From an uncultured Opitutaceae bacterium (lineage in GTDB: Bacteria > Verrucomicrobiota > Verrucomicrobiia > Opitutales > Opitutaceae): DNA of 64,000 nucleotides. Of this stretch, positions 16,249 to 41,320 are shown piece after piece. The stretch spans positions 1-64,000 of the forward strand of contig CAJBES010000104.1 in NCBI GenBank assembly GCA_903952145.1. The letters are read 5' to 3'. The position numbers and the translations under genes were made by a program. The first letter of the stretch is position 1. Each line of letters starts with the position of its first letter. Below the pieces are notes generated by a model. That model made no database searches, was not told where the DNA came from, and was given only the letters and a program-made list of their open reading frames with translations.

Positions 16249-17223
16249 TTGAACAGGCCCGTGCTCATCGACTGTCACAATCACCTCGGCGTTGACCTGT
16301 TCTTCTACCTGAACGGCTACCACCCCTACGCGCAGGATCTGCCCGCGCTAGTGACCGAGGGCCGGCGCTGCGGCATCGACCGCTGGGTGGTGTTTCCGAT
16401 GGTGACCAACCTCACCTTCGACGTGCCGGCGATGCGCGCCGCGAAATTCACCTACGGCGGCCTCGAGACCGTGCCCTACGTGTTCGAGAACGAGCGCATG
16501 TTCCGCGAGCTCTACGAACTCTACCCTGATCTCGGCCGGCTCACCCTGCCCTTCGCCATCCTCGACCCGATGCGCGAACCTGCCGCCCAGCTGAAGAAAC
16601 TGCGCGAGTTCCGCCCCCGGTTCCCGTTTTACGGTCTCAAGATCCAGGCAACCATCATCCAGTCCGATGTCACCGCGCTCCTGACCACCGGTCGCGGCTT
16701 TCTCGACTTCGCCGCGGAGTTCAACCTGCCCTTCCTCATCCACTCGAGCGTAAAGCCTGACGATGTCTGGTCGCAGGCGCGGGACATTCTCCGGGTCGCC
16801 GAAGCCACGCCCGGCGTCCGCTTCTGCCTCGCGCATTCCTGCCGTTTCGACCGCGAATGCCTCGACCGCGTGGCGCAACTGCCCAACACGTGGTTCGACT
16901 GCTCCGCCCACCGCATCCATTGCGAATGCGTGAACCTCGGGCTGCCCGCCGTCGCACCGCAGCCGCACCGCTTCGCCGCCGACTATCGCAACCCCACCAC
17001 AGTGCTGCGCGACCTCGCTGAGGCCTATCCGACGAAACTCATCTGGGGTTCCGACACGCCATTCCAAAGCTACGTGGACAAGGACTATTCATTGCGCAGC
17101 ACCTATGCCGAGGAAACCGCCTGTCTCCACGCACTGCCCACCCGACTCAAGCAGGCCGTCGCCCACGGCAACCTCCTCGCCCTCCTTCAGCTCAAAGATG
17201 CCAACCTTCTCCCTCAAGGGTAA
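16249..17223 (+). CDS. Amidohydrolase_2-type metal-dependent hydrolase (TTG start)
   Basis: VLIDCHNHLGVDLFFYLNGYHPY; FCLAHSCRFDRECLDRV; LIWGSDTPFQSYVD. Confidence 0.8.
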   Translation: MNRPVLIDCHNHLGVDLFFYLNGYHPYAQDLPALVTEGRRCGIDRWVVFPMVTNLTFDVPAMRAAKFTYGGLETVPYVFENERMFRELYELYPDLGRLTLPFAILDPMREPAAQLKKLREFRPRFPFYGLKIQATIIQSDVTALLTTGRGFLDFAAEFNLPFLIHSSVKPDDVWSQARDILRVAEATPGVRFCLAHSCRFDRECLDRVAQLPNTWFDCSAHRIHCECVNLGLPAVAPQPHRFAADYRNPTTVLRDLAEAYPTKLIWGSDTPFQSYVDKDYSLRSTYAEETACLHALPTRLKQAVAHGNLLALLQLKDANLLPQG

Positions 17224-17398: not shown

Positions 17399-18487
17399 AT
17401 GGCCACGACCGCCACCCTCGCCACCCCCGCCGTGCTTGTGGACCGCGCGCGGCTTGAGGCCAACATCGCGGACATGCAGCGCGTCTGCGATGCCCATGGC
17501 GTCGAGCTCCGCCCGCACATCAAGACGCACAAGATGGTCGAGGTCGCCCGCCGGCAGCTCGCCGCCGGCGCCCGCGGGCTCACCTGCGCCAAGCTCGGCG
17601 AGGCCGAGGCCATGCTGCCCTCCGGCGTGCGCAGCCTGTTCGTCGCCCATTCCCTCGCGGATCCAGGCCAGGCTCCGCGCGTCGCCGCACTCGCGGACCG
17701 GCTCGACGATTTCCGCGTCGCCGTCACGAGCGAGGCGCACGCCATCGTCCTCGCCACGGTCGCCGCGGCCGCCGGCCGCAAACTCGCGGTGATGATGGCC
17801 GTGGACACCGGCCTCGGCCGCGAGGGCGTGCGCGAGCTGGCCGCGGCGCAGCGTCTCGCCGTGTGGCTGGGCCGCAGCCGCCACCTCGCGCTCCGCGGTT
17901 TCTACACGCACGAAGGCAATTTTTACGGCCTGCCGCGCGAACAGCAGCTCACGCACGTCAGTGAGCTCCTCGACCGGCTCTGCGCCGTGCGCGACGCCAT
18001 CGATCGCACCCTGCCCGTGTGGCCCGGCTGCAGTGTCTCCGCGAAGCTCATCGCCGCCGCCAGCGCCGGCCGCGTGCAGGCGGTGCGCCCTGGCGCCTAC
18101 ATGTTTGGCGACCTCTCCCTCTCCGAGGTGACCGGCGTCATGCCGTCCGCAACGGTGGCGGTGCACGTGCTCGCAACCGTGGTGGACAAACCCGAGCCGG
18201 GCCTCGCCCTGATCGATGCCGGCTCGAAGACCTTTTCCTCCGACCGCACGGCCGACAATATCCATGCCCGCGCCGCCGACGGCCGCGATCTCGCCGTCGT
18301 GCGCGTCAACGAGGAGCATGGCTACGTGCGCGGTGCGGCGGTGGAGGCCCTGCGCGTGGGCGAACGCCTTGCCTTCACCCCGGCGCACATCTGCCCGGTC
18401 ATCAACCTCACCGACGAGGTCACCGTGACCGGGGGCGGACAAATCGTGGACACGTGGCGCGTCGAGGCCCGCGGCAAAAACCGCTGA
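17399..18487 (+). CDS. D-threonine aldolase / D-serine dehydratase-like PLP fold III enzyme
   Basis: TPAVLVDRARLEANIADMQRVCDAHGVELRPHIKTHKMVEVARRQLAAGARGLTCAKLGEAE; C-terminal NEEHGYVRG and PAHICPVINL. Confidence 0.87.
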   Translation: MATTATLATPAVLVDRARLEANIADMQRVCDAHGVELRPHIKTHKMVEVARRQLAAGARGLTCAKLGEAEAMLPSGVRSLFVAHSLADPGQAPRVAALADRLDDFRVAVTSEAHAIVLATVAAAAGRKLAVMMAVDTGLGREGVRELAAAQRLAVWLGRSRHLALRGFYTHEGNFYGLPREQQLTHVSELLDRLCAVRDAIDRTLPVWPGCSVSAKLIAAASAGRVQAVRPGAYMFGDLSLSEVTGVMPSATVAVHVLATVVDKPEPGLALIDAGSKTFSSDRTADNIHARAADGRDLAVVRVNEEHGYVRGAAVEALRVGERLAFTPAHICPVINLTDEVTVTGGGQIVDTWRVEARGKNR

Positions 18488-18882: not shown

Positions 18883-19866
18883 GTGCCCTCCGTGAAATCC
18901 GTGAATAAAAATACTTCCGCACCGTTACGCCTCGCGATGCTCGGGATGATTCCGGGCAACGGCCATCCGTTCTCCTGGTCAGGCATCATCAATAGTTACG
19001 CCCCAGCCGCGCTTGCCCAGTGCCCTTACGCGGGGATCACCAAATACCTCGGCGCGCACCCGCCGGAAACCGTGGGTATTCCCGGCGCCCGCGTCACCCA
19101 CCTCTGGACCGATGATCCCTCCGAAGCACCGCTGGTCGCTGCGACCGCGCTCATTCCCCATGTCGTCCAAAAACCGGAGGATGTCATCGGTCACGTCGAC
19201 GCGGTGCTGATTGCCACCGACGACGGCTTCGACCATGTGCGCCGCGCACGACCCTTCGTCGAGGCCGGTCTGCCCGTGTTTGTGGACAAACCCCTTGCGA
19301 CCAGTCTCGACGATCTCCGCACCTTCATTGCATGGGGCAAGGCTGGTGCGGCCCTTCTCTCCTCCAGCGGCATGCGCTACGCGCCCGAACTCGACCCTTA
19401 CCTCGACGGTCATTCCGATCTCGGCCCGCTGCGCTGGGTGTCCAGCGTCACCGCGAAGACTTGGGAGCGCTACGGCATCCACGCCCTCGAGCCTGTTTTC
19501 CGCCTCACCGGCCCGGGCTTCACCTCCGTCCGGCTCGAAACCGCTCCCGGCTTCGAGCTCGCGCATCTCATCCACCGCTCCGGCACGCAGGTCACGCTCC
19601 CGGTCATTTACGACGGCGTCGCCGCCTTCGGCACGCTCCATCTCTGCGGGCAAAACGGCCAGGCCACGATCCGCTGCACCGACACCTATACCACCTTCCG
19701 CCGCCAGCTGGTCGCCTTCGTGGACTTCCTGCGCGCCGGAAAATCCGCCTACCCGTTCAGCGATACGGTCGAACTCATGGCCATTATCATTGCCGGGCTC
19801 CGCAGCCGCGCCGAGGGTTGCCGTCGCGTTGAGGTTGCTGAAATACTCACCCAACTCCCCTTATGA
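18883..19866 (+). CDS. Gfo/Idh/MocA family oxidoreductase
   Basis: LRLAMLGMIPGNGHPFSWSGIINSY; VDAVLIATDDGFDHVRRARPFVEAGLPVFVDKPLATSLDDL. Confidence 0.82.
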   Translation: MPSVKSVNKNTSAPLRLAMLGMIPGNGHPFSWSGIINSYAPAALAQCPYAGITKYLGAHPPETVGIPGARVTHLWTDDPSEAPLVAATALIPHVVQKPEDVIGHVDAVLIATDDGFDHVRRARPFVEAGLPVFVDKPLATSLDDLRTFIAWGKAGAALLSSSGMRYAPELDPYLDGHSDLGPLRWVSSVTAKTWERYGIHALEPVFRLTGPGFTSVRLETAPGFELAHLIHRSGTQVTLPVIYDGVAAFGTLHLCGQNGQATIRCTDTYTTFRRQLVAFVDFLRAGKSAYPFSDTVELMAIIIAGLRSRAEGCRRVEVAEILTQLPL

Positions 19867-20684
19867 AACTACGTCCCAGCCGCATCCTTCGCCTGCTTCG
19901 CGAATCCCGCTTCGTGTCCACCATGAAGCTCAACCTCACCGATCCCCGGGTGACCGAGATGGCCGGAATCGCCGGCTACGACGCCCTGTGGCTCTGCAAC
20001 GAGCATGTGCCGACGGACTGGACGACGCTCGAGCACGCGATCCGGGCCGCCCGGCTTTACGACATGGACACCCTCGTCCGCGTTGCCAAGGGCAGCTACA
20101 GCGACTATGTGCGGCCCCTCGAAGCCGGTGCCACCGGCATCATCGTGCCCCACGTTGAGAGCGCGGAGGAAGCGCAAAGGATCATCTCGTGGACCCGCTT
20201 TCACCCCCTCGGCAAGCGGGCCCTCGACGGTGGCAACACCGACGGCGCCTACTGCACCGCGCCCGTCGAGGAATACCTGCATCACAGTAACACGGAAAAA
20301 CTGATCGTGCTCCAGATCGAGTCACCCGAGGGGCTGGCCCAGGTCGAGGCCATCGCCGCCGTGCCGGGTTTCGACGGCTTTCTCTTCGGTCCGGGCGACT
20401 TTAGCCATCGCATCGGCCAGGCCGGAAAACTCACGCTCCCCGAGGTCACCACCGCCCGCGTACGGGTTGCCAACGCCGCGAAAAAACACGGCAAGTTTGC
20501 GATGACCGCCGGGCTGTATGTGCCGTTCGCGCAGCTCGTCACAGAAGGTCACACCGTCTTCAATCTCGGTTCCGACGTGGGCGGCCTGAATACGTGGTTC
20601 ACGCAGCGGATGGAACTCCTGCAGGACCACATCAAGGCCCTGCCCCCCGGTGCCGCCGGCAAGAACCAGTCCCCTTATGCCTGA
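19863..20684 (+). CDS. HpcH/HpaI aldolase/citrate lyase family protein (paralog 1)
   Basis: LWLCNEHVPTDWTTLEHAIRAARLYDMDTLVRVAKGSYSDYVRPLEAGATGIIVPHVESAEEA; GKRALDGGNTDGAYC; ATGA overlap with upstream gene. Confidence 0.88.
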   Translation: MKLRPSRILRLLRESRFVSTMKLNLTDPRVTEMAGIAGYDALWLCNEHVPTDWTTLEHAIRAARLYDMDTLVRVAKGSYSDYVRPLEAGATGIIVPHVESAEEAQRIISWTRFHPLGKRALDGGNTDGAYCTAPVEEYLHHSNTEKLIVLQIESPEGLAQVEAIAAVPGFDGFLFGPGDFSHRIGQAGKLTLPEVTTARVRVANAAKKHGKFAMTAGLYVPFAQLVTEGHTVFNLGSDVGGLNTWFTQRMELLQDHIKALPPGAAGKNQSPYA

Positions 20685-20771: not shown

Positions 20772-22040
20772 ATGATCATCATCAAGGAAGGCGGTCACCG
20801 GCTGTTTGAAACCGACCCCGAAACCGCGCGCTACGTGGGCGAAATGCTCGGTGAGCTGCGGCGGCGCGGGCTCGATGCCGTGCGTGATCTCAGCCGGAAA
20901 TTCGACGGCTGGGATCCCCCGGATTTCGAGCTGACCGCTCCGCAAATCGCCGCGGCGATCGCCCAATGCCCGGATCAACTCGTGCGCGACACGGAGTTCT
21001 GTCAGGACAATGTCCGCCGTTTTGCCGAGGCCCAGTTGCAGACCCTCCGCCCGATGGAGATCGAACTGCGCCCGGGCGTGTGGCTGGGGCACCGCCACAT
21101 TCCGGTGCAACGGGTCGGCAGCTACGTTCCCGGGGGGCGCTACCCCATGTTCGGGTCGGCCCAGATGAGCATCATCCCCGCTAAAGTGGCGGGCGTGGCA
21201 ACTGTCGTCGCCTGCACCCCCCCGGTGAAGGAGGGCGGGTATTACCCGGCGACGATCAACGCCATGAAACGCGCCGGAGCCGACCGGATTTTTGTGCTCG
21301 GTGGGGTGCCCGCGATGGCGCTGATGGCTTTCGGCCTGGGCGGCGTCGATCCCGTGGACATCCTGTGCGGTGCGGGCAACAAGTTCGTCGCGGAAGCCAA
21401 GCGCCAGCTTTTCGGATCCTGCGGCATCGACCTGCTCGCCGGACCGACCGAGATCGCTATCATTGCCGACGACGGGGCTGATCCGGCGCTCGTCGCCTGC
21501 GACCTGCTCGGTCAGGCCGAGCACGACCCGAACAGCGGCCAGCTCTGCGTATGCCTGGGCGAGCCCTTTGCGCACGCCGTGCTGCAGGAAGTCAACCGGC
21601 AGCTCGCCATCCTCCCGACCCGCGACATCGCGCAACAATCCTGGGAGCGTAACGGCAAACTCTACGTCGCCGCGGATGCCGACGAGGCCATCCGCCTGTC
21701 CGACGACTACGCGCCCGAACACCTCGAGCTGCATGTCCGCAACCTGGATTATTTTTTCGAAAGGCTGCAGAACTACGGTTCGCTCTTCATCGGCGAAGAG
21801 ACGACCGTTGCCTATGGCGACAAGAGCATCGGCACCAACCACATCCTGCCGACGAGCCGCGCCGCACGTTACACCGGCGGCGTCTGGGTGGGCAAGTTCC
21901 TCAAGACTGTGACCTACCAACGCATGACTCCCGCCGCCAGCCGGGAAGTCGGCGCTGTGACGGCCCGGCAGTGCGATGTCGAACGCATGCAGGCCCATGC
22001 CATCACGGCGCGGGTGCGCGTGGCGCGGTATTCCTCCTGA
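20772..22040 (+). CDS. Histidinol dehydrogenase family protein (catabolic HisD-like)
   Basis: VGSYVPGGRYPMFGSAQMSIIPAKVAGV; LLAGPTEIAIIADDGADP; AEHDPNSGQ; YAPEHLELH; GTNHILPTSRAARYTGG. Confidence 0.88.
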   Translation: MIIIKEGGHRLFETDPETARYVGEMLGELRRRGLDAVRDLSRKFDGWDPPDFELTAPQIAAAIAQCPDQLVRDTEFCQDNVRRFAEAQLQTLRPMEIELRPGVWLGHRHIPVQRVGSYVPGGRYPMFGSAQMSIIPAKVAGVATVVACTPPVKEGGYYPATINAMKRAGADRIFVLGGVPAMALMAFGLGGVDPVDILCGAGNKFVAEAKRQLFGSCGIDLLAGPTEIAIIADDGADPALVACDLLGQAEHDPNSGQLCVCLGEPFAHAVLQEVNRQLAILPTRDIAQQSWERNGKLYVAADADEAIRLSDDYAPEHLELHVRNLDYFFERLQNYGSLFIGEETTVAYGDKSIGTNHILPTSRAARYTGGVWVGKFLKTVTYQRMTPAASREVGAVTARQCDVERMQAHAITARVRVARYSS

Positions 22041-22078
22041 CGCGCCATCGTCATTTTTCCGCTCAAACCTTCTTCCCC

Positions 22079-22867
22079 ATGCCTGAGCACTCCTCGTTTT
22101 CCCTCCACGGCAAAATGGTCGTCCAATGCGGCGGCACCGGTCTCCTCGGCCGCGCCCTCGTCGCTGCGCTCGGCGCCGCCGGGGCCACGCTCGTGGTCGC
22201 CTCACGCGACCAGGCCAAAATCGAGACCGCCCTCGCCCCCGGTCGCGCGGCCGGGCAGTTGCTGCACGCCGAGTCCGTGGACATCACCGACGAAGCCTCG
22301 GTGGCCGGCCTGCGTGACCGCATCATCGCCGCCCACGGACGCATCGACGGGATGGTGTTCAACGCGGTCAGCCGGCCGATGCGCAACGAGCAAGCCCCCC
22401 TCGCAGCGTGGCAGGAATCGATGGCCGTCAATGCCACCGGTTTTTTCCTCACCCTGCGCACCTTTGCGGACGCGATGGCGGTCCAACCCGCCGGCGGCAG
22501 CATCGTCAACATCGCTTCCATGCAGGGCATGATCGGCTGCAACCCCTGGCTCTACGAAGGCACCGCGATGGGCACCGTGCCGGACTATTTTTTCCACAAG
22601 GGCGGCATGATCAATCTCACGCGCCACTACGCGTCGGTTTACGGCCAGCGCAAAGTGCGCGTCAACGTCGTCTCCCCCGGTGGCATCTACAATCCCGAGA
22701 AGCCCCAGGCGGACGCTTTTCTCGAGCGCTACGGCAAGATGACCATGCTCGGCCGCATGGCCGACGCCCCGGAAATTGGCGGCGCGGTTGCCTTCCTGTT
22801 GAGTGATGCCGCCAACTATATCACCGGTGTCAACCTGCCGGTGGATGGCGGTTACACGGCCAAGTGA
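22079..22867 (+). CDS. SDR family oxidoreductase
   Basis: LHGKMVVQCGGTGLLGRALVAALGAAGATLVVASRD; GSIVNIASMQGMIG; YITGVNLPVDGGYTAK. Confidence 0.88.
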   Translation: MPEHSSFSLHGKMVVQCGGTGLLGRALVAALGAAGATLVVASRDQAKIETALAPGRAAGQLLHAESVDITDEASVAGLRDRIIAAHGRIDGMVFNAVSRPMRNEQAPLAAWQESMAVNATGFFLTLRTFADAMAVQPAGGSIVNIASMQGMIGCNPWLYEGTAMGTVPDYFFHKGGMINLTRHYASVYGQRKVRVNVVSPGGIYNPEKPQADAFLERYGKMTMLGRMADAPEIGGAVAFLLSDAANYITGVNLPVDGGYTAK

Positions 22868-22901
22868 GCCCGGAGCGATTGCTTCCCAGGAGATTTCAAT
22901 C

Positions 22902-24014
22902 ATGACGCCTCGCCAAAGACTGCTCACCGCCTACACCGGGGGCCGGCCGGATTCTGTCCCGGCCCTCGCCGACCTGTCTTACTGGCACGCCGGCAACGGC
23001 GGCGGCAAGTTCATCCCGGGCAAGACGGATGGGGCCAACCGCGACAAGGTGGCAACCCTGCTCACCCTGCACCGGCGCACGGGTGCGGCGATTCACGTCA
23101 ACCTGGGCTCATTTTACAACGAGGTGCACCACCCGTCGGTGCGGGCCGCCTCCGGCATCCGCGGCGAACACTATTTTCACCGGCTGGAAACTCCGCTTGG
23201 CACCGTCGAGGAGATCCGCGAGTGGTCGCCGGTCACCTTCAGCTGGCCCATCACCCACCACATGATTCAGGACGTGGAGGACCTGAAGGTGGTCCGTCAT
23301 GTCTTCGAACACCTCACCTACACGGCGAATTGGGATCTGCTGCGCGAGGTGGACGCGCAGGTCGGCGAACTGGGCCTGCCCTTGGTGCAGGTGCCCTACT
23401 CCGGCATGGGCTTTCTGATGAGCCGCTACGCCGGCGTCGAACTCACGGTCATGCTGGCGATCGACGCCCCGGATGAACTGACCGAGACGCTGGCCGTGAT
23501 CAACGCGGCCCACGCGAAGAGTTGCCGCCTGATGGCGGAGGGGCCCTCACAGGTCATGATTCACTCCGACAATCTTTCCGCCGACGTGCAAAGCCCCCCT
23601 TGGGTGCTGCGCCACAGCGGCGAACACTACGCGCGGATGGCGGCCATCGCGCACGAATACGGCAAGCCCATCGTCACCCACATTGACGGCCGGCTGCGCG
23701 GTTTGCTCCGCACCACCCGTGACTTGGGTTTCGATGGTGCGGACGCGGTGACCCCGGCCCCTTGGGGTGACCTGACTCCCGCGGAGTGCCGGGCCGAGGC
23801 CGGCCCCCGCTACGTACTCTCCGGCGGCGTCCCGCCCGGCAGTTTTCATCCGGACGTTCCGCTGGCGGTTTTCGACGCGCAGGTGGAGGCCTGGCTGGCG
23901 CTCCGTCACCAGAGTCCAGCCCTGATCATTGCGCCCGGTGACCAACTACCTCCGGACGGTGATCTTGACCGGGTCACCCGCATGGTGGCAGCCGCGGCCC
24001 GGGCCACTTACTGA
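22902..24014 (+). CDS. Uroporphyrinogen decarboxylase (UroD/MtaA) family protein
   Basis: MTPRQRLLTAYTGGRPDSVPALADLSYW; HIDGRLRGLLRTTRDLGFDGADAVTPAPWGDLTPAECRAEAG; LSGGVPPGSF. Confidence 0.8.
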   Translation: MTPRQRLLTAYTGGRPDSVPALADLSYWHAGNGGGKFIPGKTDGANRDKVATLLTLHRRTGAAIHVNLGSFYNEVHHPSVRAASGIRGEHYFHRLETPLGTVEEIREWSPVTFSWPITHHMIQDVEDLKVVRHVFEHLTYTANWDLLREVDAQVGELGLPLVQVPYSGMGFLMSRYAGVELTVMLAIDAPDELTETLAVINAAHAKSCRLMAEGPSQVMIHSDNLSADVQSPPWVLRHSGEHYARMAAIAHEYGKPIVTHIDGRLRGLLRTTRDLGFDGADAVTPAPWGDLTPAECRAEAGPRYVLSGGVPPGSFHPDVPLAVFDAQVEAWLALRHQSPALIIAPGDQLPPDGDLDRVTRMVAAAARATY

Positions 24015-24053: not shown

Positions 24054-24833
24054 ATGAATCCCGGCCTCAACCTGCAGGGTAAAATCATCTGGGTCACCGG
24101 CGGCGCCGGTTACCTTGGTTCCGTCATCACGCGCGAACTCGATGCGCAAGGCGCCCAGGTTATCTGCATCGATCTGGCGGGCCGCGCCGAGGCACTCGTG
24201 CGCGAGCACGCCCTCACCCGCACGGTCCCGCTCTCGCTGGATGTGAACGATGCCGCGGCCCTGCCCGCCGTGCTTGATGCCACGATCGCCGCGCACGGCC
24301 TGCCCGATGGCGTCGCGCACCTCGCGTTCGCCTCCTCCAGCGGCCACCGCTTGGAAACGCTCCCGGCCGCCGAATTTCAAAAGACATTTGATCTCGCGCT
24401 CACGCCGACCTTCGTCCTCTGCCGCGCCCTGGCCGAAAAAATGAAACCGCGGGGCTCAGGCAGTATTGTGCTGTTCTCCAGCATGTATGGCGTCGTCGCC
24501 CCGGATCCGCGTATCTACCACGCGCCCCTGACGCCCAACCCGATCGACTACGGCGCGAGCAAGGCCGCCCTGCTGCAACTCGCCCGCTATCTGGCGGTGC
24601 ATTACGGTCCGAGCGGCCTTCGCTTCAACTGCATCACGCCCGGACCATTCCCCAACCCCGGCGTGCAGCAGGCCCACCCGAAATTCATCGATGCGCTCGC
24701 CCAAAAGACCGCGCTCCGCCGTATCGGCCGCAACACCGAGATCGTCGGACCCGTTCTTTTCCTGCTCTCCGACAGCGCTTCATTCGTCACCGGCCACAGC
24801 CTGGTGGTCGACGGCGGCTGGACTGCTTGGTGA
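24054..24833 (+). CDS. SDR family oxidoreductase
   Basis: LQGKIIWVTGGAGYLGSVITRELDAQGAQVICIDL; IDYGASKAALLQLARYLAVHY; FVTGHSLVVDGGWTAW. Confidence 0.9.
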   Translation: MNPGLNLQGKIIWVTGGAGYLGSVITRELDAQGAQVICIDLAGRAEALVREHALTRTVPLSLDVNDAAALPAVLDATIAAHGLPDGVAHLAFASSSGHRLETLPAAEFQKTFDLALTPTFVLCRALAEKMKPRGSGSIVLFSSMYGVVAPDPRIYHAPLTPNPIDYGASKAALLQLARYLAVHYGPSGLRFNCITPGPFPNPGVQQAHPKFIDALAQKTALRRIGRNTEIVGPVLFLLSDSASFVTGHSLVVDGGWTAW

Positions 24834-31465: not shown

Positions 31466-32287
31466 ATGAAACCCAGATCCAGCCGCATCCTGAAACTTCT
31501 CGCCGACGGCCAATTGCCCACTGTCTTCAAACTCAACCTGGCCGACCCGCGCGCCATCGAGATCGCTGCGCTTGGCGGCGTGGATGCGGTCTGGCTGTGC
31601 AATGAGCATGTGCCCAACGACTGGCTCAACCTCGAGCATCAGATCCGCGCCGCGCGCATCCATGATGTCGACACCCTCGTGCGGGTCGGACGCGGCAGCT
31701 ACAGCGATTACATTCGTCCCTTCGAGGCCGATGCGACGGGCATCATTGTGCCCCACGTCGCCGATGCGGCCGAGGCCCGCCAGATTGTGGAGTGGGTGCG
31801 GTTTCATCCCGTGGGCAAGCGGGCGCTCGACGGAGGCAACCTCGACGGCCAGTTCTGCCTGCTCCCGTTTGACGAATATCTGGTGCATTCCAACCGCGAG
31901 CGCCTCGTGATCCTGCAGATTGAGTCGCCCGAGGCCTTGGAGCAGGTGGAGGCGATTGCCGCCGTGCCTGGTTTCAACGGCATTCTCTTCGGGGCCGGCG
32001 ACTTCAGCCATCGGATCGGCAAGGCCGGGCAAATCGATGATCCCGTGGTCGCCGCCGCCCGCAAGCGCGTGGGCGCCGCCTGCCGGCGGCATGGCAAATT
32101 CGCCATGAGCGCACGGCTGGCGGAACCGCTCAGCGACCTGGTCGCCGAGGGCTATCGCGTGATGGGCGTCGGCGCCGATGTGCTGGGGCTCACCGCTTAC
32201 GTCCACCAGCGGCTGCAGGTGGTCCAGGGTCATATCGATGGCCTGCCGGCTGCGCTTAAACCGTCCGCGCGTTCAGTCTACGCCTAG
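31466..32287 (+). CDS. HpcH/HpaI aldolase/citrate lyase family protein (paralog 2)
   Basis: Collinear with 19863..20684: VWLCNEHVPNDWLNLEHQIRAARIHDVDTLVRVGRGSYSDYIRPFEADATGIIVPHVADA; GKRALDGGNLDGQFC. Confidence 0.88.
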   Translation: MKPRSSRILKLLADGQLPTVFKLNLADPRAIEIAALGGVDAVWLCNEHVPNDWLNLEHQIRAARIHDVDTLVRVGRGSYSDYIRPFEADATGIIVPHVADAAEARQIVEWVRFHPVGKRALDGGNLDGQFCLLPFDEYLVHSNRERLVILQIESPEALEQVEAIAAVPGFNGILFGAGDFSHRIGKAGQIDDPVVAAARKRVGAACRRHGKFAMSARLAEPLSDLVAEGYRVMGVGADVLGLTAYVHQRLQVVQGHIDGLPAALKPSARSVYA

Positions 32288-32340: not shown

Positions 32341-33273
32341 ATGAAGATCCCAATCAAGGCGGCCAAAAAAATCGAGGGTCCCCTGGTGCCCATCATGCCG
32401 GCATTCGATGCCGACGAAAAACTCGACCTTGATTCCACCTGCCGGTGGGTGGAGTGGCAGATCGCCTCCGGGATCAGAAATTTTTGGACGACCTACGGCA
32501 CGTCCCACTATATGAGCCTGACCGATGAGGAGATTTACGCGCTCAATCAGGCCGTCGCCGGTGTCACCCGGAAAAAGGCCGTCTTCATCGCGAGCACCAA
32601 CTTCACCTGGCCGGCCGCCAAGTGCCTGGAGTTCATTCATGCCGCCCGCGCGTGGGGCGCCGATGTCGTCAAGATTCAGGTGGACTGGCGCTGGAATCCC
32701 AACCAGGACGCCGTCTTCGATTTTTACCGCCGCATCACCCTCGGCACCAGCCTGCCCCTCTTCGCCTACACGCTGGCCGCGCCGAATGTAAAGGGCATGA
32801 ACCGCCGGCTGCTGGAGCGCATCATGACCCTGCCGCAGTTCGTGGGCATGAAAAACGACACAGGCGATTTCTACGAACAGTGCGACTACCTCCGCGGCGT
32901 GCGCCTGGCGGGCAGTTCGCTCAATGTCATGACGGGAGGCTCCATGGCCTCGTTCCTGCACAACCACCAATTCGGCGCCCGCGCCTTTGCCGTCGGCATC
33001 GGTACAGTTTTCCCCAAGGTGGCCCTGCGCTTCTATGCGGCGCTGCGGGCGGGCCGGCTCGCCGCCTGCGCCCGGATCGTACAGGAATGCGAAGAGCCCT
33101 TTTACGACCTGTATGCCCGCATCAGGGTTTCGCACTGGGCCTGTTTCCACACGATGCTGAGGGAGCGCGGCCTGTTTAGCTCCGACCAGATGCGGTTTCC
33201 GCTGCTCACCGCCAAGCCGGACGATCGCAAAGCCATCCGAAAGCTCATGCGGTTGCCCGCGCTGAACGCCTGA
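32341..33273 (+). CDS. Dihydrodipicolinate synthase (DapA/NAL) superfamily aldolase
   Basis: EGPLVPIMPAFDADEKLDLDSTCRWVEWQIASGIRNFWTTYGTSHYMSLTDEE; FVGMKNDTGDFYE with candidate Schiff-base Lys. Confidence 0.83.
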   Translation: MKIPIKAAKKIEGPLVPIMPAFDADEKLDLDSTCRWVEWQIASGIRNFWTTYGTSHYMSLTDEEIYALNQAVAGVTRKKAVFIASTNFTWPAAKCLEFIHAARAWGADVVKIQVDWRWNPNQDAVFDFYRRITLGTSLPLFAYTLAAPNVKGMNRRLLERIMTLPQFVGMKNDTGDFYEQCDYLRGVRLAGSSLNVMTGGSMASFLHNHQFGARAFAVGIGTVFPKVALRFYAALRAGRLAACARIVQECEEPFYDLYARIRVSHWACFHTMLRERGLFSSDQMRFPLLTAKPDDRKAIRKLMRLPALNA

Positions 33274-33300: not shown

Positions 33301-34455
33301 ATGAAGATAACCCTTTCCGATCCCATCCTGGTGGCGGAAGGTCCCGCCAGGGAAATCCGCTGGGGCCGCTACCAGTTCCCCACCTTTGGCCGCATCGGCA
33401 ATCGTATCACCCTGACGTTCCACGTCGCGGAGGACAGCCCCCGCGCCTATGGCCAGATCGGCGAACAGCCCAATCGCGGCCTCTCGGCCGACGGCGGCCG
33501 CACCTGGTCGCTCGTGCGGGCCACCGAGCCCACCGACGGGTTGCTGTTGCCCAATGGCGATCATATCCGCATTGGCACCCCCGAGGTCACTCCCAAGTCG
33601 ATTCCCGTGGGCGAACTGACGCTGCCAGCTCCCGTCGGCACGCTCATCGGCACCTACGGCCACCTTCCCTACACCTATTACCGCCACGATGAACTGCCCC
33701 TCATCCTGCAGGGCGTGCCACTCTCGCGCCGGCCGGCCGGCTCCGATCGGTGGGTGGAGGAACGGGCCCGGCTCGATGATCCGGCTATGCAGCGCTACAC
33801 GATCCAGGAAGTTTTTCCCGTCGTCTGGTGGGGCGATGTGCATCTGACTACCGACGGTTCGCTGCTGGCGATCGTCTACCCCTGCTCAGCCGAGGGCGAG
33901 GTGGCTTGCTACCGCTCCCGCGATTTCGCCCGCTCCTGGCAGCCGCAAGGCCGTATTCTGTATCGCCCCGATCTCAAGGCCGATCCCCTGGCCGCGGGAC
34001 GCACGTGGGGTTTCACGGAACCTGGCACCGTGATCCTGCGGGATGGCTCACTCCTCGCCGCCCTGCGCACCACGGATGGTCTCGGTGTCGGCCCCATGTA
34101 TCTCACCCGCTCCAAGGATCAGGGACGGTCCTGGCCGGCGCCCCATGTGATGAGTCCAACCGGCGTGATGCCGCGGCTCCTCCAACTGGGCAACGGCGTC
34201 ATCGTGCTCAGCTCCGGGCGGCCCGGCGTCGATCTCCGTTTCAGTTTTGACCACCGCGGGGAGACCTGGACCGAACCGCATGCACTCGTGCCGCTGACCT
34301 CCGACGACGTGCAGGCCGACAGCTGCGGCTACACCAACCTCATTGCGCTCGATGATGATTCCTTTCTCGTCGCTTACAGTTGGTTCAAACGTCCAGGAAC
34401 CGACGGTCAGACGCACAAGGCCGTGCTGGTGCGCCGGGTCACGGTTCTGCCCTAG
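33301..34455 (+). CDS. Sialidase/BNR-repeat (exo-alpha-sialidase-like) protein
   Basis: Asp-box motifs LSADGGRTWS, SKDQGRSWPAP, FDHRGETWTEP; EPGTVILRDGSLLAALRTT. Confidence 0.75.
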   Translation: MKITLSDPILVAEGPAREIRWGRYQFPTFGRIGNRITLTFHVAEDSPRAYGQIGEQPNRGLSADGGRTWSLVRATEPTDGLLLPNGDHIRIGTPEVTPKSIPVGELTLPAPVGTLIGTYGHLPYTYYRHDELPLILQGVPLSRRPAGSDRWVEERARLDDPAMQRYTIQEVFPVVWWGDVHLTTDGSLLAIVYPCSAEGEVACYRSRDFARSWQPQGRILYRPDLKADPLAAGRTWGFTEPGTVILRDGSLLAALRTTDGLGVGPMYLTRSKDQGRSWPAPHVMSPTGVMPRLLQLGNGVIVLSSGRPGVDLRFSFDHRGETWTEPHALVPLTSDDVQADSCGYTNLIALDDDSFLVAYSWFKRPGTDGQTHKAVLVRRVTVLP

Positions 34456-34486: not shown

Positions 34487-36823
34487 ATGAAATATGAAGC
34501 TGCCGTCAATCAGCGCGATGACGCGCTGATCGCATCAAGGCTGAACGGCTTTGTTCCGGCCGAGGTTTACGATGCCCACGCCCACCCCTATCACCCCGGC
34601 CACTTTGCACCCGGGGCCTGGAGCTTTCTCGCGGACCAAGGTCCGCTCGGTTGCACGGAGCATCGTGCCGCCCTGCAGCGGTATATGCCCGCGACGACCA
34701 TCCACGGCGCCTACTTCGGCCTGCCGCACCCGTCCGCGGACCGGCCGGCCATAAACGCCTGGGTCGCCGGGCAGGTCCAGGCACATGGGACTCCCCTCAG
34801 CCGGGCTTTTCTGCTGGTGGCACCGGACGATGACCAGGCCATGGTCGCCGCCGCCCTGCACGACGGACAGTTCTGCGGTCTCAAGGTCTATCACTGCTAT
34901 GCCGGACGCCCCGACACGATGAATGCGACGGTCGAGGAGTATGCTCCGGAGTGGATGTGGGCGTTGCTCGACCAGGTGCACGGAATCTTGCTGCTGCATA
35001 TTGTCCGGGACGGCGCGTTGGACGATCCCGTCAACCAGCAGTCCCTCCGCCGGCTTTGCCGCACCTATCCCAACGCACGGCTCCAGCTGGCCCATATTGC
35101 CCGCAGCTTCAATTACCGGAATGCGCGCAGTGCCCTGCACACCATCGCCGACCTGGATAACGCGGTCGTGGATACGTCCGCCATCTGCGAGACCGAGGCA
35201 TTGCGGGCCGCGCTGGAGATTCTCGGTCCGCGCCGGGTGCTGTGGGGCTCGGACTTTGCCGTCAGTGAAATGCGCGGCCGCTGTGTGACGACCGGCGCCC
35301 ATTTCTTCTGGCTGCACCCACAGGGGCTGCATCCCGCCCTCCAGGCCCCCACCACCACCGCGATGACCCTTGTGGGCATCGAATCTTTGCTCTGCCTGCG
35401 CGAAGCGTGCGAGGACCTCGGCCTCACGCCTGATGACATCGGGGATGTTTTTCTGCACAATGCCCGGCGCCTGCTCGCCCCGCATCTGCCGGCGGCGACC
35501 GTGCCGGCAGAACGACCCGGCGCCGCGCTGTGGCAGCGGGCGCGGGCCGTGATTGCGGGCGGCACCGGCCTCATGTCCAAGCGCGCCGAGATGTTTGATG
35601 CGCGCGGCTGGCCGGCCTATTTCTCGCGCTGCGCCGGGGCCGAGGTCTGGGATCTGGAGGGCCGGCGCCATCTGGATTTTACGGGCGGCGTCGGCGCCGT
35701 GCTGCTGGGTTATGCCGACCCGGAGGTGACGGCGGCGGTGCGCCGCCGCCTCTCCCTCGGCACCTATTGCACCCTGGTCAACCCGCAGGAGGTGGAGCTG
35801 GCCGAGCAGCTGCTCGCCCTGCATCCATGGGCCGGCAAGGTCAAATATGCGCGCGGCGGCGGGGAGGCGATGATGATGAGCGTCCGGATCGCGCGCGCCG
35901 CCACCGGCCACAGCGGCGTGGCCTTCTGCGGCTACCACGGCTGGCACGACTGGTATCTGGCCGCCAATCTGGGCGCGACCGATGCGCTTAACGGCCATTT
36001 GCTGCCCGGCCTCGAGCCCCGGGGCGTCCCGCGCGAACTGCAGGGGACTGCCGTGCCCTTCCGCTACAACGATCTCGCCTCACTCGACCGTGCGCTGGCG
36101 CAGCTCAGCGGCAATCTCGCCGCGGTGGTGATGGAGCCCATGCGGTCGCAGTTGCCCAAGGATGATTTCATCGGACAGGTCGCCGCCCGTTGCCGGACGG
36201 CGGGGGCGGTATTCGTGGTGGATGAGGTGACCAGTGGTCTGCGCTACGGTTTTCCGGGGGCGTTGAGCCGGTTCGGCATTGAGCCCGATCTGGCGGTCTA
36301 CGCCAAGGCCATGGGCAACGGCTTTCCCTTTGCCACTGTCATTGGCCGCGAGGAAATCATGAAGGCCTCGTGCGGGAGTTTCATCTCATCCAGCTATTGG
36401 ACTGACGGCATCGGCCCCGCGGCCGCATTGGCCGTGCTGGCCAAGGCGCAGCGGATCCGCGCGCATGAACTGGTCTGGGCGCGGGGCGGGCAACTGCAGG
36501 CGGCGTTGCGGGCCATTGCCGCGCGCCATCCCGCGTGCCGCCTCACGGTGGGGGGCATGCCCGCGACGCCTACCCTGACTTTCGACCTCGGCGCGGATGC
36601 GCCGCTCGCACAAACCCTCTACACCCGCAAAATGCAGCAACGGGGGCTGCTCGTTTCCTCCTATTTTTATCTCATGGTCGCCCATGCAGAGACGCATATT
36701 GCACAACTGCTCGAGTGCCTGGATCCAGTGCTGGGCGAGATCAGCCAAACAATCGAGTCTGGCAAACTGGCCGCCGAGTCAGGCGCAGCACGAGGCCAGC
36801 GGGGATTTACCCGGCTCGCGTAA
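34487..36823 (+). CDS. Fusion: amidohydrolase_2-like domain + class III (GSA-type) aminotransferase
   Basis: N-half YDAHAHPYHPGHF...RLQLAHIARSFNY...VLWGSDFAVSEM; C-half HLDFTGGVGAVLLGYADPEVTAAV...FVVDEVTSGLRYGFPGALSRFGIEPDLAVYAKAMGNGFP; one uninterrupted frame. Confidence 0.85.
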   Translation: MKYEAAVNQRDDALIASRLNGFVPAEVYDAHAHPYHPGHFAPGAWSFLADQGPLGCTEHRAALQRYMPATTIHGAYFGLPHPSADRPAINAWVAGQVQAHGTPLSRAFLLVAPDDDQAMVAAALHDGQFCGLKVYHCYAGRPDTMNATVEEYAPEWMWALLDQVHGILLLHIVRDGALDDPVNQQSLRRLCRTYPNARLQLAHIARSFNYRNARSALHTIADLDNAVVDTSAICETEALRAALEILGPRRVLWGSDFAVSEMRGRCVTTGAHFFWLHPQGLHPALQAPTTTAMTLVGIESLLCLREACEDLGLTPDDIGDVFLHNARRLLAPHLPAATVPAERPGAALWQRARAVIAGGTGLMSKRAEMFDARGWPAYFSRCAGAEVWDLEGRRHLDFTGGVGAVLLGYADPEVTAAVRRRLSLGTYCTLVNPQEVELAEQLLALHPWAGKVKYARGGGEAMMMSVRIARAATGHSGVAFCGYHGWHDWYLAANLGATDALNGHLLPGLEPRGVPRELQGTAVPFRYNDLASLDRALAQLSGNLAAVVMEPMRSQLPKDDFIGQVAARCRTAGAVFVVDEVTSGLRYGFPGALSRFGIEPDLAVYAKAMGNGFPFATVIGREEIMKASCGSFISSSYWTDGIGPAAALAVLAKAQRIRAHELVWARGGQLQAALRAIAARHPACRLTVGGMPATPTLTFDLGADAPLAQTLYTRKMQQRGLLVSSYFYLMVAHAETHIAQLLECLDPVLGEISQTIESGKLAAESGAARGQRGFTRLA

Positions 36824-37086: not shown

Positions 37087-38088
37087 ATGAGCTCTCTCCC
37101 CACCGTCCTTATCATCGGCTGCGGCAGCATCGGCGAACGCCATCTGCGCACCTTCCTCGCCACCGGCCGCTGCCGCGTCCTCGCCTGCGACAACCGCCCG
37201 CCCATTCTCGCGGCCATGGCGGAACGCTACGCCGCACCCACCGCGGCGGATTGGCGCACGGCCCTCGCCACCCCGGGTCTTTATGCCGCGGTCGTTGCCA
37301 CGCCGGCGCCCAGCCACGTTGCCATCGCCACGGAAATCCTGCGCGCGGGCAAACACTGCCTCATCGAGAAACCCCTCGCACTCACGCTCGACGGCATGGA
37401 GGCGCTCACCGCCGCGCACACTGCCGGCGGCCGCGCCGCCGGCATCGCCTATGTGCATCACTTCCTCACCGAGGTCGCCGCCGCCCGCGCCTTCCTGCAG
37501 ACGGGCACCCTCGGCCGCGTGCTCCACGCAAGCGTCGTGTCGGGGCAGGACTTCCCTTTTTTCCGTCCCGCCTACCGCGAGATCTACTACCGCGACCGCG
37601 CCCAGGGCGGCGGCGCAATCCAGGACGCATTCACCCACCTCGCCAACCTCATGGAGTGGTTCCTCGGCCCGGTCGCCACGCTCAGTTGCGAAGCCGGCCA
37701 CCAGGCCCTCGCCGGCGTGGAGGTTGAGGACACCGTGGCCGTGACCGCACGCACGCACGCCGGCGCGATCGTCGTCTGGTCGCTCAACCAGTTTCAGGCC
37801 CCCAACGAAACCACGCTCCAGTTCAACGCCGAGCATGGCAGCGTGACGGTCGAGTATCACCGCCGGCGCTGGGGCCGTCTCGCCCGCGGCGACCAGGCCT
37901 GGACTTGGGAAACCTTTCCGCCCGCCGAGCGCGACGCCCCCTTCATCGCGCAGGCGCATGCCTTCCTCGATCAGTGCGAAGTCAAACCCACGGGTGTCGC
38001 CTCGCTCGCTGACGGCATTCAGGCCGTGCGCCTGAATCTCGCCACCTTCGAGTCGTTGCGCACCGGCCGGCGCGTGACGGTGGCGTAA
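37087..38088 (+). CDS. Gfo/Idh/MocA family oxidoreductase
   Basis: LPTVLIIGCGSIGERHLRTFLATGRCRVLACD; LRAGKHCLIEKPLALTLDG; start reassigned from track 36535. Confidence 0.88.
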   Translation: MSSLPTVLIIGCGSIGERHLRTFLATGRCRVLACDNRPPILAAMAERYAAPTAADWRTALATPGLYAAVVATPAPSHVAIATEILRAGKHCLIEKPLALTLDGMEALTAAHTAGGRAAGIAYVHHFLTEVAAARAFLQTGTLGRVLHASVVSGQDFPFFRPAYREIYYRDRAQGGGAIQDAFTHLANLMEWFLGPVATLSCEAGHQALAGVEVEDTVAVTARTHAGAIVVWSLNQFQAPNETTLQFNAEHGSVTVEYHRRRWGRLARGDQAWTWETFPPAERDAPFIAQAHAFLDQCEVKPTGVASLADGIQAVRLNLATFESLRTGRRVTVA

Positions 38089-38137: not shown

Positions 38138-41100
38138 ATGACACCCTTGGAATTCACCATCGATTGGGGCTACCAGTTCCTGTACTCCCGTCGTCACTAT
38201 CATCCCGCTTATTGCTGGGACGGCCGGATCGAATGCCGTGGCGGTTCTATCCACACCGTGCACCAGCTGCGCTACCCCGTGGTTTGGTGGGGCGTGGTCC
38301 TCTCGCCTGAGGAAACCAAGCTGGAGGGTTGCACGTGGCAATCCACCACCCGCCGCGGGATGTCCGGCATCCGCGTGACGGCGGACTGCGGGGAGGCGGC
38401 GGAGTTCGTCCTCGCCACGGCCCAAGGCGAGTTCCGGTTTTCCGCCCGACGGATTCGCGAGGAAGGCCGCATCGTCTTCCCTGTCGGCTCGAAGTATTCG
38501 CACTGCACGATCCTCGTCACGCGCAAAGGCCACCTCTGGTTCCGCCCGCCGCCCTTGCCGCAGGAAACGGCCATTGACGCCGCCGCGTTGCAGGGCGTGC
38601 CGCACGGCAACTGGCAGCGCATGGACCAGGCGTGGATTGCCCCCGGAGCCCGCGCCGGATTCGAACTCACCCTGCCGGCCACCACGGCGGACGGCGAATC
38701 GCATTGGCTGCTGCATCTGCAAGCCATGTCGATGGGCGGCACGCCCGAACAGCCGCAGCTGAACGTGAAAGACTATGTGCCGATCGAGGTGCGGGCCGAC
38801 GGCCGCAGCCTGGCGGCGTTCCGCCATTACCTGCGCTTCCACGACCAACACCTCCAGATTCTCAACGACCTGTGGCTCGAAATCCCGTTCTCCGCGCTCC
38901 TGCCGGGGCCACACCGGTTCGAGTTGGTCAACCAACACCGGACGCTCTCGCTCCTGGTCAACCGCGTATCGATCCGCCCGCGGGTTCACCGGCACCTCGA
39001 CCTGACCGCTCCGCGTTGGGCGCTCGTGGGCCGCGAGTTCATCCTGCGGCTGCAAATTCTGGAATCGGGCGCACCGGTCGCCCTGGATTACGATCCGGCG
39101 GCCTTCCGCCTGGTCTCGGAACTGTCGCCCGATCGTCCCCTGCACGCCGGACCGCACGAGCTCCGCCTGGTGCCGCTGCAACCGCAGCGCGATGCGCGGA
39201 TCGGCGCCACCGACCTGCGCTCCGGGCGGCGCATGACCACGACCCTCGCCGCCATTTACCAGCTGCCGGCCGAGACGCCCGAGGTGAAGATCGGCTACGA
39301 CATGACCTTTGTCGCGCACGACGACACGGGGGAGATGGACTGGCTGCTCGACTACACGCAGCGCACGCAACTGGCCAATCTCGTAATCTTCCGCGCCTTC
39401 ACCCCGTGCCCGATCGCACCGACAACGCTGCAGCGTTGGGGTCGGTTTTGTCGGGAGCACGGGCTGTACGTCGAAACCGTGAACTGTCTGGAAACCGATG
39501 CTCTGCCGGCGGCCGCAGGGGATCACTTTCATTCGGGCGGCACGCACGAACTCAGCGGTGTCGTCTACGCGCACAACCCTGACAACGGCTCCCGCACAAT
39601 GAAGGACGCGGCGGAGCGCTTCACCGATTTCATCCGCGAACCTGTGCGCGGCGTGCGCGCCCTCGGCGTGCCGGTCGCGTTCGGCGATGCCAGCTGCGGA
39701 CACCGCTACAGCCTGATGGCCGGGGCGACCTTTCTGCGCGCGGAGACCATGGTGCCGCACACGACGCTCCTGCTCACCCAGGCACGGCCGGCGGCCCAGG
39801 CGCTGGGCACGGGCGAATGGGGCGTGCACATCGCCATCCAGCACGCCAAGCAGCCGTATCTCGAATCGCACCTCGGCTGGTATTATCTTTCCCTCGCCCA
39901 GCCATGGATCATGGGCGCGAATTTCCTCTACGAGGAGGACAGCCTCTTCGTCATGAGCAAGGAGGAGCGCCAGTGCTGGGACGATGCCTTGACCAAGGGC
40001 AAGCGCGACATGACGCGCGACTTCCTGCGCTTTGCCCAGACGCATCCGCGCACGCGCCGGCCGGAGGTCGCCATCGGCGCCTTGCTCGGTCGCTACGCCG
40101 CACCGTTCAACGGTTTCATCTGCGATTCCGAACAAGACCCCTCCTATTCTGTCTGGGGCCGGTTCGGTCGCACCGATCCGACCTGGGGGCACCGGCAACC
40201 CGAAAAAGCGCATCAGGTGCTTGACGTGCTCATGCCCGGCGCGAGCACGCACCCGCTGCGCCAGCAACACGACCGGCGGCGCTTCTTTTTCTCCGGCTCG
40301 CCCCACGGCGATTTCGACCAGCCGCCCATCGAAGCCGGGCGGGAGTTTCTCGCGCGTTACCGTTTGTTGCTGCTCCTCGGCTGGAATACCCTGATCGAGG
40401 CGGACTACCGCAAGCTCCGGCAATATGTGGAGGCCGGCGGCACCCTGCTGCTCGGCGTTCCCCAACTCTCCACCCACGAGGGCCGCGACTTCCTCCAAGC
40501 GTTCGACGATCTGGCCCTGTATCAGAACGGCAATGTGGCCGACCTGTGTGGCGTCACCATCACCGGTCGCGGTCCGCGCTACAGCGGACGCTGGCAGGCG
40601 GTGGACGAGACCTTCGCCGGAGCAGCTTGCCCGCCACTCTCGCGCGCGCCGAGCGTCGCGCCGGATGAGGACGGCCCGTGTCACGTGGCGGCAGTCAGCC
40701 TGGCTGGCGCACGCCCGGTCATCGTGGATGCGTCCAACCAGCAACCGCTGCTCGTCGAGCACCGGCTTGGCCAAGGTCGCGTGTATCTCATCACGACCTG
40801 GGCTTATCCCGGACACGAAGAGCTGGCCGACTTCTCGGGTGCCGTGGTCGACCGCTTGTGCCGCGAACATCAAGGCGCCTGCCGCGTCGCAGATCCCAGC
40901 CGGGAAGTCTTTTGGACCCACTGGCCCGATGCCGCGGGCTCCGGCAAGCTGTTCCTGCTTAACACCGACTGGACCGAGCGCGGCAACGTGAAAACGGTCA
41001 CGGTCGAGACCCCGTCCCTGCGCTTCGCGTGCACCGTACGCGAACGGGAGATGAGCATCGTCACCCTGCTGCCCTTCGGCGCTTTGGTACAGGAGACGGC

Positions 41101-41320
41101 CGGGCCACATGTGGAAACGCTGCGCATCGCTGCCAACGCAGCGCAACTGCGGGTGCACACCGCCCACCCCACGCGCTTCCGCCTGCACGCCGCCGACTCG
41201 TGGCACGTCCAAGTCGATGGGATATCCGTGCCCCTGTCCGGAGGTGCCGCGCAGGGTTGGAGTTTCGACCTGCCCGCCGGCCCCCTCACCCAACACGAAC
41301 TGCAGATCACCCGGTGTTAG
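38138..41320 (+). CDS. Large uncharacterised protein, putative glycosidase-like (TIM-barrel plus GATase-like region)
   Basis: 1060 aa; LLLLLGWNTLIEADYRKLRQYVEAGGTLLLGVPQLSTH typical of beta-galactosidase-like GATase domains; LLVEHRLGQGRVYLITTWAYPG. Confidence 0.65.
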   Translation: MTPLEFTIDWGYQFLYSRRHYHPAYCWDGRIECRGGSIHTVHQLRYPVVWWGVVLSPEETKLEGCTWQSTTRRGMSGIRVTADCGEAAEFVLATAQGEFRFSARRIREEGRIVFPVGSKYSHCTILVTRKGHLWFRPPPLPQETAIDAAALQGVPHGNWQRMDQAWIAPGARAGFELTLPATTADGESHWLLHLQAMSMGGTPEQPQLNVKDYVPIEVRADGRSLAAFRHYLRFHDQHLQILNDLWLEIPFSALLPGPHRFELVNQHRTLSLLVNRVSIRPRVHRHLDLTAPRWALVGREFILRLQILESGAPVALDYDPAAFRLVSELSPDRPLHAGPHELRLVPLQPQRDARIGATDLRSGRRMTTTLAAIYQLPAETPEVKIGYDMTFVAHDDTGEMDWLLDYTQRTQLANLVIFRAFTPCPIAPTTLQRWGRFCREHGLYVETVNCLETDALPAAAGDHFHSGGTHELSGVVYAHNPDNGSRTMKDAAERFTDFIREPVRGVRALGVPVAFGDASCGHRYSLMAGATFLRAETMVPHTTLLLTQARPAAQALGTGEWGVHIAIQHAKQPYLESHLGWYYLSLAQPWIMGANFLYEEDSLFVMSKEERQCWDDALTKGKRDMTRDFLRFAQTHPRTRRPEVAIGALLGRYAAPFNGFICDSEQDPSYSVWGRFGRTDPTWGHRQPEKAHQVLDVLMPGASTHPLRQQHDRRRFFFSGSPHGDFDQPPIEAGREFLARYRLLLLLGWNTLIEADYRKLRQYVEAGGTLLLGVPQLSTHEGRDFLQAFDDLALYQNGNVADLCGVTITGRGPRYSGRWQAVDETFAGAACPPLSRAPSVAPDEDGPCHVAAVSLAGARPVIVDASNQQPLLVEHRLGQGRVYLITTWAYPGHEELADFSGAVVDRLCREHQGACRVADPSREVFWTHWPDAAGSGKLFLLNTDWTERGNVKTVTVETPSLRFACTVREREMSIVTLLPFGALVQETAGPHVETLRIAANAAQLRVHTAHPTRFRLHAADSWHVQVDGISVPLSGGAAQGWSFDLPAGPLTQHELQITRC

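Follow-up and report, generated by a model that had tools for sequence, protein, structure and literature searches.

A conserved fusion of an amidohydrolase and a class III aminotransferase in a catabolic gene setting of an uncultured Opitutaceae bacterium

We analysed a 64,000-nucleotide stretch of DNA from an uncultured Opitutaceae bacterium (the window) and found that it encodes a genuine and widespread fusion enzyme, in which an N-terminal amidohydrolase is joined to a C-terminal class III aminotransferase. Sequence comparison supports a real fusion with functionally linked halves, each with its catalytic set conserved, and likewise supports the catabolic setting and the co-occurrence with Gfo/Idh and HpcH genes. 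We propose, at about an even chance, that the protein is one bifunctional catabolic enzyme through which an amino-sugar-like compound enters a Gfo/Idh-SDR-HpcH route. The gene and its two halves are as follows.

34487..36823, + strand: fusion gene, 778 aa, N-terminal Amidohydro_2 and C-terminal class III aminotransferase (open reading frame and translation, Pfam, 39 other full-length homologues)
34487..35494, + strand: amidohydrolase half, residues 1-336, with the metal-ligand-type set H31, H33, K133, H171, H203 and D256 (alignment A2)
35495..36823, + strand: aminotransferase half, residues 337-778, with PLP lysine K607 and aspartate D579 (alignments A1 and A3; 5i92 profile match)

The preliminary description of this DNA reported a single 778-aa frame, and the translation is indeed stop-free and contains all the motifs named there (DAHAHP, HIARS, GSDF, DEVTSG and AKAMGNG). 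Amidohydro_2 and Aminotran_3 co-occur in this one protein, both with Pfam matches above the curated cut-offs. Amidohydro_2 (PF04909) covers residues 28-330 (37.9 bits against a cut-off of 26.4; profile positions 1-287 of 289), and Aminotran_3 (PF00202) covers residues 378-681 (124.3 bits against 30.5). A longer open frame is possible from an in-frame TTG at 34343; the ATG at 34487 (MKY...) is common to the fusion relatives in the alignment. GC3 ranged from 0.75 to 0.90 along the frame, with a drop to 0.65 in the last stretch only.

The window lies in contig C104 of a 341-contig draft assembly, and thus the reading that an assembly or frameshift artefact fused two genes had to be weighed. Split gene pairs in other genomes would also agree with such an artefact. 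However, 39 other full-length fusions, among them isolates and a one-contig genome, align across the linker, which is short, conserved in position and crossed by an open frame. Conservation across so many records makes a frameshift or join implausible, and we rejected the artefact, whose probability we regard as negligible. No assembly join lies between the domains, a point that the preliminary description had listed for checking, and its refuting case of orthologues that are always split is contradicted by the fusions in the 39 other records.

Genome contigs and 387 genomes of the phylum were scanned for the fusion. Including the window's own, 40 full-length fusions were found, and the other 39 were 37-75% identical to the window protein. 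According to record titles and tree labels, which for metagenome-assembled genomes (MAGs) depend on binning, the fusion-bearing records represent at least eight phyla (Verrucomicrobiota, Bacteroidota, Planctomycetota, Spirochaetota, Hydrogenedentota, Armatimonadota, Acidobacteriota and Lentisphaerota); one Clostridia MAG also carried the fusion. Three carriers are isolates, Chitinophaga alhagiae and two Membranihabitans (loci L013, L014 and L017), and the fusion of the one-contig genome, G122, is 74% identical to that of the window. Within the family, 22 of 200 genomes were counted as carriers, one of which (G488) has the first half only, with one stop. Such patchiness is what one expects of an accessory catabolic gene. 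The plasmid records searched contained stand-alone aminotransferases only and no fusion. No description of the architecture was found in the literature searched, a set with few subscription journals; both domain families are well known, and by that literature it is their combination that appears new.

Eight residues are invariant across 38 hydrolase halves in alignment A2: D29, H31, H33, K133, H171, H203, D229 (of a DTS motif) and D256. The HxH, K, H, H and D positions match up with those of further Amidohydro_2 proteins that the window's genome encodes. The barrel ligand pattern is shared with L005 and with the window protein at 16249-17223, and L002 and L003 are without the K. In a PDB sequence search, solved structures gave weak and partial matches (best E 1.8e-7 over 79 positions), and the solved Amidohydrolase 2 protein 4dlf aligned at the GSD motif region only. 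The sole NCBIfam match was to L-fucono-1,5-lactonase (NF052480), with 16.8 bits and an E of 0.004 against an equivalog cut-off of 400 bits. The bond cleaved is not callable because the hydrolase half is too distant from any characterised Amidohydro_2 enzyme.

In the aminotransferase halves, D579 and K607 are invariant, and the stretches around them line up with those that hold the PLP aspartate and lysine in solved glutamate-1-semialdehyde (GSA) aminomutases. The profile match to enzymes such as 5i92 reached an E of 2e-61. The C-6' aminotransferases 7lld and 7lm0 were among the PDB matches; some class III aminotransferases act on sugars. The equivalog cut-offs of HemL (GSA aminomutase, TIGR00713; 168 against 527 bits) and PRK06209 (NF004856; 219 against 486 bits) were missed, and a HemL or haem role was therefore rejected. 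Since the metal-ligand-type and PLP residues are invariant, both halves look catalytically competent and are predicted to be active. Another aminotransferase of this sub-family, encoded as a stand-alone protein, is present in the window's genome (L109 9121-10488, G000:C86; 49% identity to the window's aminotransferase half), flanked by Gfo/Idh and FGE-sulfatase-like genes, with an SSF transporter nearby.

Split hydrolase and aminotransferase genes lie adjacent on the same strand in seven pairs (L036, L042, L080, L106/L172 from one genome, L173, L174 and L175), and one further pair is head-to-head (L069). Conservation of the fusion and adjacency of the split genes indicate that the halves are functionally linked. 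The earlier suggestion of a coupled hydrolase and transaminase thus holds for a genuine two-domain enzyme with linked halves, and its amide or lactam specificity was not decided by the distant relatives. At L172, the split genes lie within one run of propeller, Gfo/Idh, amidohydrolase, aminotransferase, Gfo/Idh, SDR, HpcH and SDR genes. A glutamate dehydrogenase gene located 3' of the split aminotransferase of L042 fits recycling of the amino acceptor and does not fix the direction of the reaction.

We built quick trees of both halves, of which the aminotransferase tree has poorly resolved deep branches. In the hydrolase tree, the fused rows group with one solo row in a 99* clade, and the five split rows tested fall outside it. 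The aminotransferase tree mixes fused, split and solo rows, with seven changes, four of which starred branches make necessary. Although the hydrolase tree favours one fusion event, we make no such claim here, as the aminotransferase tree needs several changes. The association of the two domains is recurrent, and fusion may have followed gene adjacency. At L186 (G012:C38, 4442-7830), a further hydrolase from this amidohydrolase family adjoins a GSA-type aminotransferase of a different lineage and a Gfo/Idh gene, which suggests repeated pairing of this family with aminotransferases. Separately, stand-alone aminotransferase relatives at L075 (7371-9410), L077 (7194-9296) and L083 (7239-9299) carry an N-terminal SpsF-type cytidylyltransferase-like domain, which looks like a second fusion within the same aminotransferase sub-family.

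The genes around the fusion in the window are listed below; the last seven entries lie further upstream, where GfoIdhA belongs to a companion gene run.

31466..32287, + strand: HpcH/HpaI-type aldolase, with which the same-strand run begins (Pfam PF03328; a relative in 21 of 22 fusion-positive family genomes)
32341..33273, + strand: DHDPS-family aldolase/dehydratase (Pfam, NCBIfam; nearest model the 5-dehydro-4-deoxyglucarate dehydratase subfamily, below cut-off)
33301..34455, + strand: BNR_2 propeller-type protein (Pfam; a BNR_2 neighbour in 12 of 48 fusion loci)
37087..38088, + strand: Gfo/Idh/MocA-type oxidoreductase, 263 bp downstream of the fusion (start by translation; groups with Gfo/Idh family N13 and gives a score with the N13 profile)
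16249-17223, + strand: second Amidohydro_2 protein
17399-18487, + strand: D-threonine-aldolase/BhcC-like protein
18883..19866, + strand: Gfo/Idh-type dehydrogenase, GfoIdhA (in all fusion-positive family genomes searched)
19863..20684, + strand: second HpcH aldolase, GarL-like, adjoining GfoIdhA
21971-22867, + strand: SDR dehydrogenase
22803-24014, + strand: URO-D-like gene between the two SDR genes
24054-24833, + strand: SDR dehydrogenase

The fusion had been placed at the end of a candidate operon with HpcH, DapA-like (DHDPS) and BNR genes. These neighbours were confirmed; the operon end is uncertain, as the same-strand Gfo/Idh gene follows 263 bp on and a search of that gap gave no terminator-like site. 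Orthologues of the proteins at 16249-17223 and 17399-18487 adjoin the fusion itself in three Opitutaceae loci (L130, L132 and L133). A histidinol-dehydrogenase-type protein at 20772-22040 scores above the hisD domain cut-off, lies within the Gfo/Idh-HpcH-SDR run and has a relative in L194; it may be a catabolic alcohol dehydrogenase. Starting 49 bp after the downstream Gfo/Idh gene, a 1060-aa + strand frame (38138-41320) overlaps an antisense 1073-aa open frame and matches no Pfam family at 0.001.

Across 48 fusion loci, the neighbours included propeller-like proteins (15), SDR (13), BNR_2 (12), MFS (9), HpcH and SSF (8 each), along with NHL, MR_MLE and Gfo/Idh at 7 loci each; SusD was present in Bacteroidota. 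The setting is one of glycan or sugar-acid catabolism. The propeller-like proteins recurring beside the fusion are apparently secreted and about 500 aa long (L012 3266-4732, family N3). Family N3 has no Pfam or PDB sequence match, and "propeller-like" is our reading of the sequence, not a profile-based assignment; these proteins are possibly uncharacterised glycan-cleaving enzymes.

Co-occurrence was evaluated in the 200 genomes of the family, comprising 22 carriers and 178 non-carriers. Genes of the GfoIdhA type were present in all 22 carriers and in 38 of the non-carriers (Fisher p 1.3e-13), and the HpcH aldolase in 21 and 42, respectively (p 3.4e-11); these p-values are too small, being inflated by genome relatedness, and the nesting is still striking. 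As a control, we used an unrelated Amidohydro_2 gene from the window's genome; it was not linked to the fusion (3/22 against 25/178). The Gfo/Idh-HpcH pair also occurs away from the fusion, accompanied by genes for SDRs, TonB receptors and propeller proteins, and we therefore read the fusion as a module for entry into a route that already existed.

In the route that we propose, the N-terminal metal-dependent TIM-barrel (Amidohydro_2) would hydrolyse a C-N or C-O bond (a lactone, a lactam or an N-acyl group) of an amino-sugar-like substrate, and the PLP domain would pass the substrate's amino group on to a keto acid. The sugar acid left behind, in keto or aldehyde form, would next serve the Gfo/Idh and SDR dehydrogenases as substrate, and lastly the HpcH-type aldolase would split it by a retro-aldol reaction into pyruvate and a short aldehyde. 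We infer what class of substrate is used, which bond is cleaved, in what order and direction the steps run and whether channelling takes place. Several observations count against this route: HpcH, Gfo/Idh and SDR genes lie near the fusion at only 7-13 of the 48 loci, many genomes with GfoIdhA and HpcH lack the fusion, the weak structural matches of the hydrolase half leave its bond unassigned, and the aminotransferase half could be an aminomutase or run in the amination direction.

As a variant of the bifunctional catabolic enzyme, the N-terminal half could be a sugar lactonase like the COG3618/Amidohydro_2 lactonases, with the aminotransferase acting on another carbon of the same sugar acid. 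MR_MLE, HpcH, DHDPS, Gfo/Idh and SDR neighbours fit an oxidative non-phosphorylating sugar-acid route, and L-fucono-1,5-lactonase, although a very weak match, is the only one in NCBIfam; its score falls far under the cut-off and the 4dlf alignment is confined to the GSD region. We consider the variant possible but doubtful. Lactonase, deacylase and lactamase forms of this half are inseparable here because it has no close characterised relative. An unlikely alternative is that the N-terminal half hydrolyses an amide or a lactam, giving an omega-amino acid that the C-terminal half then deaminates. The domain order fits, and caprolactamase followed by a class III omega-aminotransferase offers a precedent in separate proteins (PMC6061476). 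However, the hydrolase of that precedent is of the ATP-dependent oxoprolinase type and not Amidohydro_2, and the neighbours of the fusion are sugar-acid-type enzymes, among which we saw no set for adipate or beta-oxidation.

An enzyme of surface-glycan (nonulosonic-acid-like) biosynthesis, working in the amination direction, seems quite improbable. Stand-alone aminotransferase relatives do lie in pseudaminic-acid-type clusters, with DegT in 26, CTP_transf_3 in 25, PseB in 22 and NeuB in 20 of 48 loci, and the split pair of L080 is on a contig with capsule/polysialyltransferase-like genes. In contrast, none of these four genes was found at the 48 fusion loci, which hold SusD, transporters and propeller proteins, and no NeuB match was found in the window's own genome. 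A role in pseudaminic-acid biosynthesis in this organism was rejected on these grounds.

The conserved fusion suggests that two reactions share one pathway. It ties amidohydrolase and aminotransferase sub-families, both without assigned function, to a widespread Gfo/Idh-SDR-HpcH catabolic gene set, bears on the orphan aminotransferase recurring in pseudaminic-acid clusters, and offers an entry point to the substrate through one gene with two half-reactions. A broader proposal, which we make tentatively while leaning against it, is that this undescribed hydrolase-transaminase of at least eight phyla channels an unstable amino or imino intermediate from one of its active sites to the other and defines a new route for breaking down an amino sugar acid or nonulosonic-acid-like component of environmental glycans.

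We compared the fusion with known systems. It shares the HxH...K...H...H...D pattern and a Pfam match above cut-off with the Amidohydro_2 (COG2159-COG3618) hydrolases, lactonases and decarboxylases; unlike them, it carries a C-terminal aminotransferase, and its matches to solved members are weak and partial. With GSA-type class III aminotransferases (HemL 5i92/6w80, D-phenylglycine aminotransferase and the PRK06209 group), it shares a fold-type I PLP domain, the PLP-site Lys and Asp and a near full-length profile match, whereas it falls below the NCBIfam equivalog cut-offs, is joined to a hydrolase and lies in a catabolic setting. The caprolactam degradation pair resembles the fusion at most in its working, hydrolysis and then deamination by a class III aminotransferase, and differs in consisting of separate proteins with an ATP-dependent hydrolase of another family (PMC6061476). 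In Legionella serogroup 6, a "glutamate-1-semialdehyde 2,1-aminomutase" is listed between the PseG and acylneuraminate cytidylyltransferase genes (PMC3694923), and we liken it to the fusion's aminotransferase by annotation and context only. The pseudaminic-acid-cluster class III aminotransferases in our loci, stand-alone or SpsF-type-fused, belong to the same sub-family and are about 39-50% identical to the window's aminotransferase half; unlike them, the fusion has a different partner domain and a different neighbourhood.
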